A DNA stretch of 32,481 nucleotides from Omnitrophica bacterium GWA2_41_15. Its GTDB lineage: Bacteria; Omnitrophota; Gorgyraeia; Gygaellales; Profunditerraquicolaceae. Made by a program: the position numbers and the translations under genes. Shown in pieces: positions 2 to 12,183 of this stretch. The notes under the pieces were generated by a model. It had not been told where the DNA came from, did not search any database, and saw only the letters and a program-made list of their open reading frames with translations. Within the stretch, counting starts at the first letter, position 1, and each line of letters opens with the position of its first letter. The stretch is taken from positions 1-32,481 of the forward strand of contig CAKKQB010000010.1 of NCBI GenBank assembly GCA_919901915.1, in the 5' to 3' direction.

Positions 2-3000
2 CGATTCACGAATAACGAGATACAAAACATCTCCGAACAACTGATGAAGGAAATCATTCTCCCCGCAATCACCCAAGACATCAACACCTCACCGCGCTAC
101 GCGCCTCTACGTCAAATATATCACTCGTTAATTCTGGCGGAATGGTTTAAACGTAAACACTCATCCGTATCTCGCGCAACGCAAGATACAAAATGCGCTT
201 CACGAGATACGCTTCACGCTTCACGAAATACTAACCCCTACGACCCCTACATCAACTCCGGCACAACCGCTGGCTTAGAATCCCAAGTTCCATGGTCAAA
301 ACAAACTCTCTGGCAGGAATATCTTAAATCTTACCAACAAGGGGAATACAAGCTCCAAGATACGCTTTTTGGCTTAAAACGGATGTATTGGAGCGGCGGG
401 ATAACTTTTTTTAAAGAAAACGGCGCCGAGATATTTACTGGTTCTTCTGCTGTAATTAAAAAATTGATAACCCTTCAAAGAAACCCTGGAAAAATCCTTG
501 CTATAGCTACTACTACAGAAAGTCCGATTCCCTCAAAAATAAAAGTTATTACTCCGAATAACGAGCTAAGAACATCCTTTCAAGCGGGAGACAAGGTTTG
601 GTATGGTAATTTTGGCTTAGGGGAAGTTAAGAAAATTACCGAAACAGGACTTATTGAGGTAAGATTCAGGAGAAAACCTTTTGAGGGTGGAGAAAACGTT
701 ATGAAAGTATCGCCTGAATTTTTAAGGTTAGCCACCAAGGATGACAAAAATACACCTAAAAAGCCTAAGAAAAAAGATACAGAGCCATTGCCCGTAAGTT
801 CTGATGTTTCTGCTGATAGCGCGCCTCTGCCCGTAAGCTCTAATGTTTCTGGTGATAGCGTACCTCCTGCCAAAGCAACATTTAAAATAATCCCCTATGA
901 TAGGGAATCAGAAAATGTTTACAATCTTTTTCTTAAAATTTTAAATATAGACAGAGATTTTTTTGAAAAATCGAATGAAAAGCTAACCATTCTTCAGAAA
1001 TCGCTAGGAACAAGGTTGAATAAACTTACAAAGAACCCCGGAGATCTTATTAATAACGCGGAATTCCAAAAACTAATAAGGATTTACTATTATCTAGCTA
1101 AATGGGCTAGCTGCCGCGCCCTTCCTCTAAAAATCAAATTATCTAAAAAAGGATACAGCTTAAAGATATCTCTTTCTCCTTCTAAGGACAAAAAATATGT
1201 TACCGCGGAAATATCTAAAGATCGGGGCACAACAAGCAGTGCTATTGCTTATGAAAATTTTCAAAATTGGTGTAAAAATATCTCTCAAGAAAAGTTAGAA
1301 AGGACAATATTATTTTTAGATATCAAAAATTCTGCTCTTAGCGGCTTACACGGTTGGCATAAACACATTTTGGAAGCCAATTTAAAACTCTCTACGTCCT
1401 TTATTAGCGCGGGACTTGTTACTGAAGAAGAGGCGGAAGAGAATCACCTTTTTGAAATTGCTTTAAATGGCTTGAGTAATCCGGATAATAATTTTCGTTT
1501 AAAATATTACCGACTCCTTAAGGCTCTTATTGATGCAAGTATTGTCACAAAAGAAGAGGCGATAAAAAGAGTAAAAGAAACAGGGCTCTTGAAAGTTGTT
1601 TTTAAAGAATTAGATAATCCGAACAAGCATATTCAATTAAATAATTTGCAATTCCTAAAATTTCTTATTGACGCTGGTGTTGTTACTAAAGAAGAAACGG
1701 AAGAGAGTCGTCTTTTTGAGGTTGCTTTCGAAAAATTAAATAAGCCCGATTGGATGTTTGCCTATTCAATCTACTGGCAGGTTCTTGAATCCCTTATTGA
1801 CGCAAATTTCGTCACAAAGGGAAAGGTGGAAGAAAAAACAAAAGAAATAGACCTCTTGCAAACTGTTCTTAAAAAATTAAATAATCCAAACATACACATC
1901 CAATATGATAGCTTGCGCTTCCTTAAAGTCCTTATTGACGCGGGAGTTGTTACCGAAAAAGAAGCAAGAGACAATCGCCTTTTTGAGATTGCTTTAAATG
2001 GCTTGAGTAATCCGGATAATAATTTTCGTTTAAAATATTCCCAACTTTTTAAATCCCTTACTAACGCGGGCATTGCCGATATAACAGAAGCAAGAAAGGA
2101 GGTAAAGGCAGTGGGCCTCTTAGAATTTACTTTTAAAGAATTATTATATAACCCAGCTCAACGGATTTGGCTAAACAATTTGCTATTTCTTAGGCCATAT
2201 ATTGACACGGGCATTGTTACCAAAAAAGAAGCGGAAGAAAATAATCTTTTAGGATTTTTTCGTATGGGATTAAATAATCCGCATTTCTATATCCAACTGA
2301 ACAGTTTGCGCGCCCTTGAATCCCTTATTAACGCGGGGTTTATTACTCAAGAAGAAGCGGAAAAAAATCATCTCTTAGAAACCTTCTACACTGGCCTAAA
2401 TGACCAGCATAGCGAGATTCGTGATGCCAGCCTTCAAAATCTTAATGCCTTTATCAACGCAGGTCTTATCATAAAAGAAAAAATTATTAGTAAAGATGAA
2501 GCGGAAAACATGTTCCTGGAAATTTACGGCAATGAGATTCCAGTTCCAAATTTTCATTATTATTTAAAAATGTTGCGCATATTGAAAGACGAACCTGATA
2601 AGGCGTATGAAATTTTTAATTATAGCCAAAAAGAATTGTCAGAATTATTGCGTATATTTAGTTACTTCGCGGAATATAATACCAAACATAATGAAAAATA
2701 TTTTTTCGAGAGAAGATGGATACGGAATCACTGGAGTCTTTTCAAAAATCCGCAAGGATTTATTAATTATTTAAAGAATAAGGTTGAGGCAATAATTAAG
2801 GGTGATTCAATAAAATTCATTATAGATATACACATGATGGTCCATGTCAACGCGGCAAAAAGCTTAATAGAAGCCATGGGAATAAATAAAGACCAAATAC
2901 TTATACGCTATGAGGGAGAAATAAGCTATGAACAAATTTTAGGATTTTTTCCCGGATATGCCATAAAAATAGGCACGGAACTTAATGATAAAAAAACCAT

Positions 3001-4045
3001 CGAAATAATGTTTCATGGCAATGACAAGATACAACCTGATTTTTCTAAAGGCTTTCTTTCAATATCAATACCTGAAATGCCATTTAAATTTAGTCTTCCG
3101 CAAGAAAGCTCAAAAGAAAAATTAGATAAAATAAAAAAAGACCTTAACGCAGGTTCAAGAAAAGTAATTGTTATAGGTTCGCCTTCAGACGCGGAATTCA
3201 ATAAGTTTATGCGGGTTTATAATGCTCTCTACAGCAATCTTCCCTGCAAAGAACGTCCATTGACTATTGTTGGTTTTAGAAGAAAAAAGAGCGAAAAAGA
3301 ATTAAAATTATTGGACAGCCTTAACAATCAATCTATTATTATCCGCGATAACGCGGCAGATCCTTTGCCGGACATTGGAGACAATAATATTTTAATACTT
3401 AATACTATCGGAGAGCTTCTTAGTATGTACGGCATAGCGGATCCGCTGTCCATAACTGGTTGTGATAGAAATATCATGGAGCCTATCCAGGGAAAAGGAG
3501 TTTTATTTTTTGATGGTGCTTGGATCAACAATCTAGAAGCAAAAACGGCTTTGGTTAACGCGGGAGCGGCAGAAGTATTTAGTGAAAAAACTTTCTCTAA
3601 TTTAATGGACGATCTCGCGAAAACAGAAGAAATGGCAGAAAAAGGGCTAAAAGTAATAGAATATTTCAAAAGAGAAGCCCGGCTTATGGCGGAAGAAGTT
3701 ACCGCGGTGATTATTACGAATAACGAAGATCTTGCAGGCGAATTGATTAACGACAAGGTACCGCAATCTGCCAATTCACCTGTTCAAATAGACAATGAAA
3801 CCGGGGGAATTGATTTAAACCGAATAGAGATTACCCTCAAAAACCAAGAATATACCTCTAAACTTAATCCTGTTGATTTAAAAATCCTGCGGGCAGCAAA
3901 GGCATTAAAAGATGGGTGGAGCAACTTATCGCTTCTTTATTGCCATGAAATAATCTTGCTTTTAAAGGATAATATAGTAAAAAATATTCGAAACAAACCC
4001 CTTCTTTTAAATATCTTGGCGCAACTTAAAATTGACCCGAACTAG
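2..4045 (+). CDS. Giant multidomain protein, 5'-truncated by window edge: tudor-like, HEAT/ARM-like repeats, KdtA-like glycosyltransferase domain
   Basis: The frame is open to the left edge, so the gene probably begins outside the window; the ATG at 44 is only the first in-frame Met, and residues below count from it. Residues 1-130 hold a module (FAPLRQIYHSLILA-like, then WSGGI) that I recall from other large Omnitrophota proteins. Residues 180-220 (GDKVWYGNFGLGEV) resemble the tudor/CarD-like fold at UvrD C-termini. A Pro/Ser-rich linker follows, then about ten helical repeats of roughly 44 residues (415-830) with a LIDAGVVTKEEAEE core, like HEAT/ARM units. Residues 1030-1220 look like the C-terminal half of Kdo transferase (WaaA/KdtA): GSPSD, NTIGELLSMYGIAD, then MEPIQGKGVLFF. 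The tail carries GGIDLN near residue 1254. No signal peptide can be judged. The chromatin, scaffold or sugar-transfer role is unknown. Confidence 0.7.
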   Translation, partial: RFTNNEIQNISEQLMKEIILPAITQDINTSPRYAPLRQIYHSLILAEWFKRKHSSVSRATQDTKCASRDTLHASRNTNPYDPYINSGTTAGLESQVPWSKQTLWQEYLKSYQQGEYKLQDTLFGLKRMYWSGGITFFKENGAEIFTGSSAVIKKLITLQRNPGKILAIATTTESPIPSKIKVITPNNELRTSFQAGDKVWYGNFGLGEVKKITETGLIEVRFRRKPFEGGENVMKVSPEFLRLATKDDKNTPKKPKKKDTEPLPVSSDVSADSAPLPVSSNVSGDSVPPAKATFKIIPYDRESENVYNLFLKILNIDRDFFEKSNEKLTILQKSLGTRLNKLTKNPGDLINNAEFQKLIRIYYYLAKWASCRALPLKIKLSKKGYSLKISLSPSKDKKYVTAEISKDRGTTSSAIAYENFQNWCKNISQEKLERTILFLDIKNSALSGLHGWHKHILEANLKLSTSFISAGLVTEEEAEENHLFEIALNGLSNPDNNFRLKYYRLLKALIDASIVTKEEAIKRVKETGLLKVVFKELDNPNKHIQLNNLQFLKFLIDAGVVTKEETEESRLFEVAFEKLNKPDWMFAYSIYWQVLESLIDANFVTKGKVEEKTKEIDLLQTVLKKLNNPNIHIQYDSLRFLKVLIDAGVVTEKEARDNRLFEIALNGLSNPDNNFRLKYSQLFKSLTNAGIADITEARKEVKAVGLLEFTFKELLYNPAQRIWLNNLLFLRPYIDTGIVTKKEAEENNLLGFFRMGLNNPHFYIQLNSLRALESLINAGFITQEEAEKNHLLETFYTGLNDQHSEIRDASLQNLNAFINAGLIIKEKIISKDEAENMFLEIYGNEIPVPNFHYYLKMLRILKDEPDKAYEIFNYSQKELSELLRIFSYFAEYNTKHNEKYFFERRWIRNHWSLFKNPQGFINYLKNKVEAIIKGDSIKFIIDIHMMVHVNAAKSLIEAMGINKDQILIRYEGEISYEQILGFFPGYAIKIGTELNDKKTIEIMFHGNDKIQPDFSKGFLSISIPEMPFKFSLPQESSKEKLDKIKKDLNAGSRKVIVIGSPSDAEFNKFMRVYNALYSNLPCKERPLTIVGFRRKKSEKELKLLDSLNNQSIIIRDNAADPLPDIGDNNILILNTIGELLSMYGIADPLSITGCDRNIMEPIQGKGVLFFDGAWINNLEAKTALVNAGAAEVFSEKTFSNLMDDLAKTEEMAEKGLKVIEYFKREARLMAEEVTAVIITNNEDLAGELINDKVPQSANSPVQIDNETGGIDLNRIEITLKNQEYTSKLNPVDLKILRAAKALKDGWSNLSLLYCHEIILLLKDNIVKNIRNKPLLLNILAQLKIDPN
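160..235. repeat. Word-repeat array inside the giant gene
   Basis: Imperfect tandem of short words around TTCACGAGATACG and CGCAAGATACAAAA. Related words (CACGAATAACGAGATAC) lie at 6-23. The array is in frame and encodes a low-complexity stretch rich in Arg, Thr and Ser (about residues 40-64) in the position where I would expect a linker of the first module. It looks like an intergenic-type repeat that has entered coding sequence. Confidence 0.55.
783..868 (+). repeat. Two-copy 39-bp coding tandem repeat (LPVSS linker)
   Basis: Two adjacent 39-bp copies encode LPVSSDVSADSAP and LPVSSNVSGDSVP, a flexible linker between the tudor-like domain and the helical region. The copies differ at a few positions. 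Confidence 0.7.
1447..2039 (+). repeat. Pair of near-identical 62-bp direct repeats, 531 bp apart, in the HEAT-like array
   Basis: Positions 1447-1508 and 1978-2039 match over 62 bp with a single A/G difference, whereas the neighbouring helical units have diverged strongly. The offset of 531 bp is 177 codons, about four repeat units. This points to recent block duplication or gene conversion within the array. Confidence 0.85.
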
Positions 4046-10202: not shown

Positions 10203-10628
10203 TTAAACCAAATCAAAAAGCCTAAAGTAATTTGTCTTATAAAGCGCGATTGCTAATAATTCTGAATCTTTCTTATCTTTTGTTACCTCTAATATTTGCT
10301 TAAGCCCGTCTTTTAATTTCAAAACAATCTTTTCGTTATTAGTTCTATTCTGAAAAACTATCTTAATTGTTTTTCCCGCGGCCTTTTCAATATTCCCTTT
10401 ACCAAAAGTTGCTCCAGTAGACAGCTGTAACCCATCAATAAGGCAGGATTTTGGTTTTTTATCCGCCCCAAAAACCTTAACTCTAAAGCCAAAATATTTC
10501 TTGCACTTAAGTTTTTTTAAGGCAAATTCCCCTGCCAAAATCCCCAAAACCAAATACGGCCCGAGGTGGCCGTGAAAATCAATCGCTCTTTCCAAAACTT
10601 TTGCATTTTTGATTTTTGATTTTTGCAT
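10203..10628 (-). CDS. FmdE-like protein (formylmethanofuran dehydrogenase subunit E family domain)
   Basis: 141 aa with FHGHLGPYLVLGILAGEFAL at the start and LIDGLQLSTGATFGKGNIE in the middle, the two blocks that define the FmdE family. Family members often carry Cys at HGHLCPG and TGCT; here those positions are Gly and Ala, while the Cys before LIDG is kept, so any metal site must differ. The ATG immediately follows the larB stop codon, so the two are translationally coupled and probably work together. The family occurs in many bacteria that lack methanofuran, and its role there is not established. The first ten residues (MQKSKIKNAK) are encoded by an A-rich word repeat. Confidence 0.75.
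   Translation of the reverse strand: MQKSKIKNAKVLERAIDFHGHLGPYLVLGILAGEFALKKLKCKKYFGFRVKVFGADKKPKSCLIDGLQLSTGATFGKGNIEKAAGKTIKIVFQNRTNNEKIVLKLKDGLKQILEVTKDKKDSELLAIALYKTNYFRLFDLV
10599..10628. repeat. A-rich word repeat at the FmdE-like start
   Basis: On the coding strand, tandem AAAAATC/AAAAATG heptamers flanked by ATGCAAAA. They encode the N-terminal extension before conserved sequence begins, so the gene start has been taken over by a repeat. Confidence 0.55.
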
Positions 10629-11297
10629 TTATTTATTTATTAGATTCGCGAAATATCCCGCGCCAAAACCATTATCTATATTAACCACTACCACACCCGG
10701 AGAGCAGCTGTTAAGCATAGCCAAAAGCGCTGACAAACCTCCAAAACTCGCGCCATAACCGCAGCTTGTAGGCACGGCAATAACCGCGCCCCTCGTCATT
10801 GAGCTAACTAAGCTTGCTAACGCGCCTTCCATGCCCGCAACCACTATAAGCACATTTGCTTTTCTTATAATGTCAACGTAATTCAAAATACGATGAACCC
10901 CGGCTACGCCCGCGTCATAAATTCTCTTCACTTTGTTTCCCATTATTTCTAAAGTAGCCGCCGCCTCTTCTGCCACAGGCATATCTGAAGTGCCCGCGGA
11001 AATAACCATGACTAAACCCTTCTTTTTAAGCCGCGGGCTCTTAAGAATATAACCTATTTTTGCTAATCGATTATATTTTAGCCTGGGAAAAAGCCTCTTT
11101 AGATACGCGAATGTCAATTTATCTAACTTAGTAAGCAAAAGGTTCTGTTTATTTTTTAACAACTCGGTAGAAATTTTTTTAAGGTGAGCTTTGGTTTTTC
11201 CCGGGCAATATATTACTTCCGCGAAGCCTCTTCTTTTATGCCTATCTATATCAATTTTGGCAAAACCTAAATCGCAAAAACCTTTTTTAGAAATCAT
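10629..11297 (-). CDS. larB: LarB: pyridinium-3,5-biscarboxylic acid mononucleotide synthase (nickel-pincer cofactor biosynthesis)
   Basis: LarB carboxylates and hydrolyses nicotinate adenine dinucleotide, the first step toward the nickel-pincer nucleotide of lactate racemase-type enzymes. The 222-aa product has the PurE-like core in order: [77 protein letters not shown]. The family usually runs 220-260 aa. larC and larE are not in the window. The partner gene downstream is FmdE-like, and the acs genes follow; both systems use metals, and nickel is used by CODH/ACS, so shared regulation is possible but not shown. No Shine-Dalgarno before the ATG. Confidence 0.92.
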
Positions 11298-11371: not shown

Positions 11372-11677
11372 TCACCGGAATATAATAACCACTAACAAAA
11401 AAATAATTAGCGCGGCAAAAATGTAAAAATCATTAAAATAAAAAAAATCACTGATTCTATCTTTAACCGAATACTCTTGAACAACATTGTGTTTTAAAGA
11501 AACGGCTCCGGTAGACTTTTTAAACTCAAGAACCTGTTCCTTCTTGAATCTTAAGTATACCCCGCCAACCTTATAAGCAGGCAAAGCGCCCTTTTCAGCT
11601 AAATCCAGCACTTCTTTTTCCGAAATACCCAAGACGCTAGAAACATCTCTAACAGTTAAAAGTTTTTCTTCCGCCAT
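11372..11677 (-). CDS. Small helix-turn-helix protein with a C-terminal transmembrane segment
   Basis: 101 aa. Residues 5-55 form an excisionase/MerR-like helix-turn-helix (LLTVRDVSSVLGISEKEV, then GALPAYKVGGVYLRFKKEQV). A 25-residue polar linker follows, and the last 20 residues (IFAALIIFLLVVIIF) form a single membrane helix with Arg at the end, so the DNA-binding-type domain would face the cytoplasm on a C-tail anchor. It starts two bases after the bactofilin-HTH stop, which carries a related helix-turn-helix. A function in membrane attachment of DNA or of the bactofilin scaffold is inference; no characterised family is recognised. Confidence 0.75.
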   Translation of the reverse strand: MAEEKLLTVRDVSSVLGISEKEVLDLAEKGALPAYKVGGVYLRFKKEQVLEFKKSTGAVSLKHNVVQEYSVKDRISDFFYFNDFYIFAALIIFLLVVIIFR

Positions 11678-11679
11678 TT

Positions 11680-12183
11680 TTATTTACTGATTTTACCTGA
11701 AGCAACCCAGGAATCAATCGCCTTTCTCTCAAACTTCCAATCACTACCTTCTTTTTGAGCGGGTATCCTTCCGGAATTCACCCACTCCATAACCGTATCC
11801 GCGTTCACCTCAAGATACCTTGTTAATTCCTCAACATTTAAATAATCCCGTAGCATAAAACAAACGCCTTCAAGAATCGCGCCTTCCGCGATATTCAACT
11901 TTGCCGGATAGATGTTACCTTCAACTATTGCTGAAGGCAGAAGCGTCAGCCTCTCCTTAGCAACTATCTTTCCTTTAACCCTGCCGCCAACAATAATATT
12001 ATCACCCACAATATCAGCCATGATAATAGCAGCCTGGCCTACAGTTAAATTACCCTTAGTATCCAAAGTTCCTTCAAATTTTCCATTTATGCGCAAGTTA
12101 ACCGAATCCTTAAAACTTAAATTGCCTTGCATCGCGGCATCAACGTCAAGAATCTTTTCTTCCGCCTTTTTTTTAAATGCCAT
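11680..12183 (-). CDS. Bactofilin fused to a C-terminal helix-turn-helix domain
   Basis: 167 aa in two parts. Residues 1-110 are a bactofilin (polymer-forming cytoskeletal) domain, a right-handed beta-helix with regular spacing of short strands (NLRINGKFEGTLDTKGNLTVG, IIVGGRVKGKIVAKERLTL, AIVEGNIYPAKLNIAEGAIL). Residues 111-167 are an excisionase-type helix-turn-helix (YLNVEELTRYLEVNADTVMEW, GRIPAQKEGSDWKFERKAI). Bactofilins self-assemble into filaments without nucleotide; I do not know a described member with this C-terminal domain. A strong GGAGG lies 5-6 bases before the ATG. Downstream is the HTH-membrane protein with a related motif, hence probably a functional pair. Confidence 0.88.
   Translation of the reverse strand: MAFKKKAEEKILDVDAAMQGNLSFKDSVNLRINGKFEGTLDTKGNLTVGQAAIIMADIVGDNIIVGGRVKGKIVAKERLTLLPSAIVEGNIYPAKLNIAEGAILEGVCFMLRDYLNVEELTRYLEVNADTVMEWVNSGRIPAQKEGSDWKFERKAIDSWVASGKISK

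Follow-up and report, generated by a model that had tools for sequence, protein, structure and literature searches.

A bactofilin carrying a helix-turn-helix domain and its membrane-anchored neighbour, a conserved gene pair of Omnitrophota

Two adjacent genes of Omnitrophica bacterium GWA2_41_15 place similar helix-turn-helix (HTH) domains on very different proteins, one on a bactofilin and the other on a small protein with a membrane anchor. The question that this locus raises is what the two HTHs hold on to. The initial annotation had read the pair as a two-part system tethering DNA, or the two proteins to each other, at the envelope. The genes, A and B, lie within the stretch of 32,481 nucleotides that was analysed (the window), and their features are as follows.

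11680..12183, minus strand: gene A, bactofilin with a C-terminal HTH_17 domain, 167 amino acids (Pfam)
12154..12183, minus strand: N-terminal tail of A, MAFKKKAEEK, resembling the bactofilin membrane-targeting peptide MFSKKKK (PMC12448750)
11860..12153, minus strand: bactofilin beta-helix domain of A, residues 11-108 (PF04519 and model comparison)
11695..11844, minus strand: HTH_17 domain of A, residues 114-163, with an acidic recognition helix (PF12728, charge)
11372..11677, minus strand: gene B, HTH_17 protein with a C-terminal membrane anchor, 101 amino acids (Pfam, profile)
11513..11662, minus strand: HTH_17 domain of B, residues 6-55, with an acidic recognition helix and a basic wing (PF12728, model)
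11420..11449, minus strand: juxtamembrane motif of B, DFFYFNDFYI, residues 77-86, near-invariant (alignment, pattern search)
11375..11428, minus strand: predicted transmembrane helix and C-terminus of B, residues 84-101 (hydropathy, model of a relative)

Domains of the two proteins

In A a short basic N-terminal tail precedes a bactofilin domain (PF04519, E 8e-23, 80.9 bits against a curated cut-off of 27.9), which is followed by an HTH_17 domain (PF12728, E 7e-12, 45.8 bits against a cut-off of 27); this bears out the earlier description of a bactofilin fused to an excisionase-type HTH. B follows after a gap of 2 bp (11678-11679) on the same strand. Its HTH_17 domain (E 5e-10, 40 bits against the same cut-off) is connected by a variable linker to the motif DFFYFNDFYI, and the protein ends in one hydrophobic helix. 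The maximal Kyte-Doolittle mean of B is 2.9, at residues 83-100, as compared with a maximum of 1.5 for A, and in the model of a relative's fusion the membrane helix of B spans residues 259-277. The annotation of B as a related HTH with a C-tail anchor, encoded two bases further on, is thus also correct. Upstream of A in the window are genes for an MgtC-like protein, TsaD and a CtpA-type protease, and downstream of B are those for LarB, an FmdE-like protein and a CODH/ACS subunit.

Gene A is a true bactofilin. In a model of a relative's pair the bactofilin fold superposes on that of Thermus thermophilus 6rib with a Z-score of 18.7 and an rmsd of 1.3 over 98 residues, and on 2n3d with a Z-score of 16.2. 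Phe130 of Caulobacter BacA is required for polymerisation (PMC12448750); column 104 of A aligns with this residue and with Phe105 of the T. thermophilus bactofilin, and is Leu in 49% and Phe in 40% of 157 A sequences (89% together), such that the hydrophobic polymerisation position is kept. A may self-assemble into filaments.

Canonical bactofilins bind the membrane through an N-terminal peptide with the consensus MFSKKKK, the two hydrophobic N-terminal residues of which enter the bilayer (PMC12448750). The commonest start of A is MAFKKK (44 of 211), with Ala at position 2, as in the window, in 77% of 157 sequences. Since A retains a peptide like the membrane-targeting sequence, it may reach the membrane without B. 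If the inserted Ala does not weaken this peptide, A would not rely on B alone for anchoring, and B would be either an additional anchor or a client. A resembles the canonical proteins (Caulobacter BacA and the Thermus bactofilin; PF04519) in its beta-helix, its polymerisation residue and its basic N-terminal tail. It differs from them in the Ala inserted at position 2, in having an invariant neighbouring membrane protein, and in ending with a structured HTH_17 where they have a short, poorly conserved C-terminal tail. All 211 A proteins match the profile through to the end of the HTH, and among the 58 nearest genomes A is the sole bactofilin in 46 of the 47 that bear one.

A second type of bactofilin, lacking the HTH and starting MF-K/R-KK, occurs in a few Omnitrophota (L309, L312 and L280/L317, from genomes G017, G259 and G051); G051 has no other bactofilin and lacks B. 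A further paralogue, L310 (G311:C69), has a tail like that of gene A with most of the HTH deleted.

Conservation and co-occurrence of the pair

A scan of genome contigs for relatives gave, as the best 80 of 212, 77 labelled Omnitrophota or Omnitrophica, two labelled only 'bacterium' and one 'Pacebacteria'. With a single-sequence query 48 of 58 relatives match B. With a profile 365 of 384 Omnitrophota genomes match at an E-value of 1e-3, and leaving out 27 whose best match was 2e-11 or worse, which were taken as HTH-only, gives 338 of 384 with B, the threshold having been set by us between full-length and HTH-only matches. Bactofilin domains are encoded by 319 of these 384 genomes. Both are present in 317 genomes, B without a bactofilin in 21, a bactofilin without B in two and neither in 44 (Fisher p 4e-39, uncorrected for ancestry and for joint loss from incomplete genomes). 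The two genes are neighbours on one strand, with A before B, at each of the 211 distinct loci that carry both. The gap is between -60 and 300 bp in 208 of these, and the three larger overlaps are ascribed to the choice of the longest-frame start. The pair is thus conserved well beyond this genome, as the initial annotation had required of it.

The exceptions are mostly on one side. There are six B-only loci, of which L010 and L094 are the same place; L010/L094, L162 and L199 end near contig ends, and L229 and L250 have no A upstream. The one A-only locus, L047, is near a contig end. Profile searches of the 384 genomes found no orthologue of gene A in the 46 that lack B: one of the two bactofilins counted there is the HTH-less paralogue of G051, with its classical start, and the other (G057) is an unrelated match. 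A further genome, G230, has a short fragment at a contig end, below the Pfam cut-off. B without a bactofilin is lineage-wide in family f17 (8/8 genomes) and genus g72 (4/4), whilst all ten genomes of family f36 are without both genes, so joint absence is not only a matter of incompleteness. As 21 of the 338 genomes with B have no detected bactofilin, B is not solely an anchor for A and must have an additional role. The asymmetry, with the HTH-bearing bactofilin not seen without B and B seen without a bactofilin, fits B as an upstream anchor rather than a mere accessory.

Conservation extends to the cluster tsaD-mgtC-A-B-larB as a whole (TsaD 66/66, MgtC 64/66, LarB 64/71), and adjacency of A and B by itself is therefore weak evidence of contact. 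LarB (nickel-pincer cofactor) adjoins the FmdE-like protein (window 10203-11297) beside the CODH/ACS genes, and FmdE is downstream of B in 36 of the same 71 relatives.

An origin in phage or defence systems was considered and rejected, as the PHROGs and PADLOC matches were generic and confined to the HTH. The MADS component MAD1 (NF047737) scored 49.4 and 36.5 bits against an equivalog cut-off of 80. No relative of B was found on viral contigs, where none of 44 pattern matches was confirmed, and none of the eight plasmid records that match A does so over >80% of its length.

The HTH domains: DNA reading or docking

Comparison using Foldseek and VIA-align grouped the HTHs with BldC, Xis, RacA, MerR-type proteins and CbpM, though VIA-align gave HTH matches for the B domain only and the A HTH was barely covered by it. 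In the model of a relative, BldC (6amk) superposes on the B HTH over 51 residues with an rmsd of 1.3 and a Z-score of 8.0. The recognition helices, on the other hand, are acidic in both proteins, where the initial annotation had made a basic helix the test of DNA binding. Over ten residues the mean net charge is -1.94 for A and -2.34 for B (157 sequences each), against +1.65 for 20 stand-alone HTH_17 proteins of the relatives, chosen by similarity to A and not proven DNA binders; the separation from these controls is complete for A and near-complete for B. The stand-alone proteins mostly have (K/R/S/Q)(K/R)(Q/R)TIY(N/E)WL, as against consensus sequences of D-L-N-S-I-M-E-W-A in A and S-E-K-E-V-I-D-L-A-E in B. 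Arg30 of BldC, which reads bases (PMC5859096), corresponds to residue 25 of B in a gap-free alignment of 51 residues and, by homology, to residue 133 of A, positions that are acidic in 69% and 91% of sequences respectively. Because some controls also have Glu here, the case rests on the whole recognition helix. It would seem likely that both HTHs have lost the ability to read sequence. The wings are basic (mean +2.0 in A and +3.9 in B), and weak, non-specific contact with DNA may persist.

BldC packs head to tail on DNA (PMC5859096) and RdfS forms oligomers without DNA (PMC11963761). Direct coupling analysis of 211 A-B pairs (Neff 159, 268 columns) placed 17 of the top 50 inter-protein couplings between the two HTHs, with 8.2 expected, and showed no excess in the block between the bactofilin domain and the HTH. 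The top inter-protein coupling was 6.3, against at most 5.1 in four shuffles, and with 157 pairs 6.8, against 6.25 as the highest of five, the shuffles in both cases not keeping ancestry. For the 16 residue pairs of the BldC interface, with the recognition face of A on the wing of B, the mean z was 0.81 versus 0.05 (p 0.005, for one direction of the two tested, with shared ancestry kept in), and the score was highest at the unshifted register. The opposite direction gave no signal (p 0.69). The former score depends largely on a single pair, A134-B38, whose members correspond to Trp31 and Leu43 of BldC. The covariation thus weakly supports a BldC-like head-to-tail contact. AlphaFold was run on read-through fusions from relatives with both genes in one frame, the stop codon of A being replaced by Gly. 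With 33 rows the fusion reached a pTM of 0.43 and no confident domain arrangement, and with 106 rows (32 paired, 37 of A alone and 37 of B alone) a pLDDT of 88 and a pTM of 0.51, with no confident interface between the two proteins.

On these data the pair probably serves to fasten a filament at the membrane, and not to bind DNA. A would polymerise through its beta-helix domain, so that each filament displays an array of HTHs, while the C-terminal helix of B would sit in the inner membrane, leaving the HTH of B exposed to the cytoplasm. Both HTHs, which have the MerR/excisionase-type, BldC-like winged-helix fold, would no longer read DNA and would instead dock on one another, probably head to tail with the recognition-helix face of A on the wing of B, thereby fixing the filament at the membrane and onto any partner of the juxtamembrane motif of B. 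That A forms a bactofilin filament for which B is the dedicated partner in the membrane, the two being joined by HTH-HTH docking, we regard as an even proposition. More tentatively, an excisionase-type winged helix may have been turned into a docking domain on both partners, with B an upstream organiser of the envelope whose YFNDFY binds a membrane partner, and with A dependent on B but not vice versa.

Of the alternatives, the one nearest to the initial annotation is that the HTHs are DNA-binding and link the chromosome to filament and membrane, in the manner of RacA or of BacNOP-PadC-ParABS. The fold matches DNA-bound BldC, Xis and RacA, Arg43 of B, the counterpart of the DNA-contacting Arg48 of BldC, is present at 211 of 211 loci in the basic wing, and Myxococcus bactofilins have been linked to ParABS (PMC5703909). 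It is the acidic recognition helices of both proteins, acidic also at the Arg30 position, that disfavour a DNA tether and make it improbable. They also count against B being a membrane-held transcription factor for which the HTH of A competes. HTH_17 and excisionase models match both proteins, as such a regulator would have it, but the linker of B is its least conserved part and the motif next to the membrane among its most conserved, as would be expected of a permanent anchor more than of a factor that is released, and we consider this reading very improbable indeed.

A stronger rival is that A and B are operon partners without contact, the HTH of A and the whole of B serving other partners and their adjacency stemming from the conserved cluster. 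The stability of that cluster and the persistence of B without a bactofilin are in keeping with it, but it leaves the strong co-occurrence across the 384 genomes to be explained, as well as the fact that both proteins share an unusual domain type with the same inversion of charge; we think it unlikely, though a serious contender. Of the original proposal, then, the two-part system stands on synteny and co-occurrence, the tethering of DNA is disfavoured, and tethering to each other is the better reading, for which the covariation is weak and the models give no confident interface.

The membrane end of B and comparison with known systems

The motif DF-x-YFNDFYI is conserved as highly as any part of B, with Tyr85 in 100%, Phe78 in 96% and Asp77 in 94% of 157 sequences, and forms in the models a short helix followed by a break and then the membrane helix. 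A back-translated pattern of the motif gave a single match, at the position of gene B, in each of 33 of the 57 relatives, while the reversed control gave none. In other classes, where the membrane end of B is also retained, the motif shifts to DFWRFNNFYI. It is present at L250, where the bactofilin has been lost, so it likely serves another partner, and its near-invariance likewise points to a likely further partner. In one relative (G084:C39:89240-89629) gene B has a long insertion in the linker that splits the profile match in two; comparably long linkers are seen at L229, L231 and L253.

The closest system in its proposed working is RodZ-MreB, which likewise pairs a single-pass membrane protein bearing a cytoplasmic HTH with a cytoskeletal polymer, although neither its filament nor its HTH is related to those of A and B. 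The HTH of RodZ belongs to Pfam HTH_25. No match to this domain (PF13413) was found in B at E-values up to 1, and separate genes for an HTH_25 protein and for MreB are present in the same genomes; B is not a RodZ by the type of its HTH. RodZ, paired with MreB, is a precedent for the anchoring of a filament through an HTH, and that of E. coli also has a periplasmic domain (PMC4047632), whereas B ends at the membrane helix and its filament is a bactofilin that itself bears an HTH. In BacA-PbpC of Caulobacter a membrane client attaches by its cytoplasmic portion to a bactofilin polymer, as in our proposal. PbpC, however, uses a short peptide for this and binds near the polymerisation interface of BacA (PMC12448750), while for A and B a contact between domains is proposed. 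The BldC/Xis/RdfS winged-helix proteins share the fold and possibly the head-to-tail packing, but they bind DNA, and the HTHs of A and B have acidic recognition helices and belong to a filament protein and to a membrane-anchored one.

We found no paper that joins bactofilins with excisionases or with Omnitrophota. Judged by titles and the beginnings of abstracts, the literature on bactofilins and helix-turn-helix proteins describes no such gene pair, and nothing in that on bactofilins and Omnitrophica was judged to concern it, nor did we find it, judged in the same way, under bactofilin and MerR (among the matches listed), the Omnitrophota cytoskeleton or BldC head-to-tail packing. Within the literature searched the pair, which is real and widespread in Omnitrophota, is undescribed, in agreement with the earlier statement that no system of this form was known. 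It bears on how bactofilin polymers attach to the membrane and select their clients, and, being phylum-wide and usually including the only bactofilin of the genome, makes a small, testable two-protein system in a phylum whose cell biology has hardly been studied. If the docking holds true, it would be an example of a DNA-binding fold that has become a docking domain on both sides.

Two further features were seen during the analysis. A plus-strand open reading frame of 1333 amino acids at 44-4045 of the window contains many repeats that are similar by eye. In a relative of the same family, one match (G011:C2:168361-168474) falls inside an open frame of 57,756 amino acids, a giant gene; giant proteins are known in Omnitrophota.
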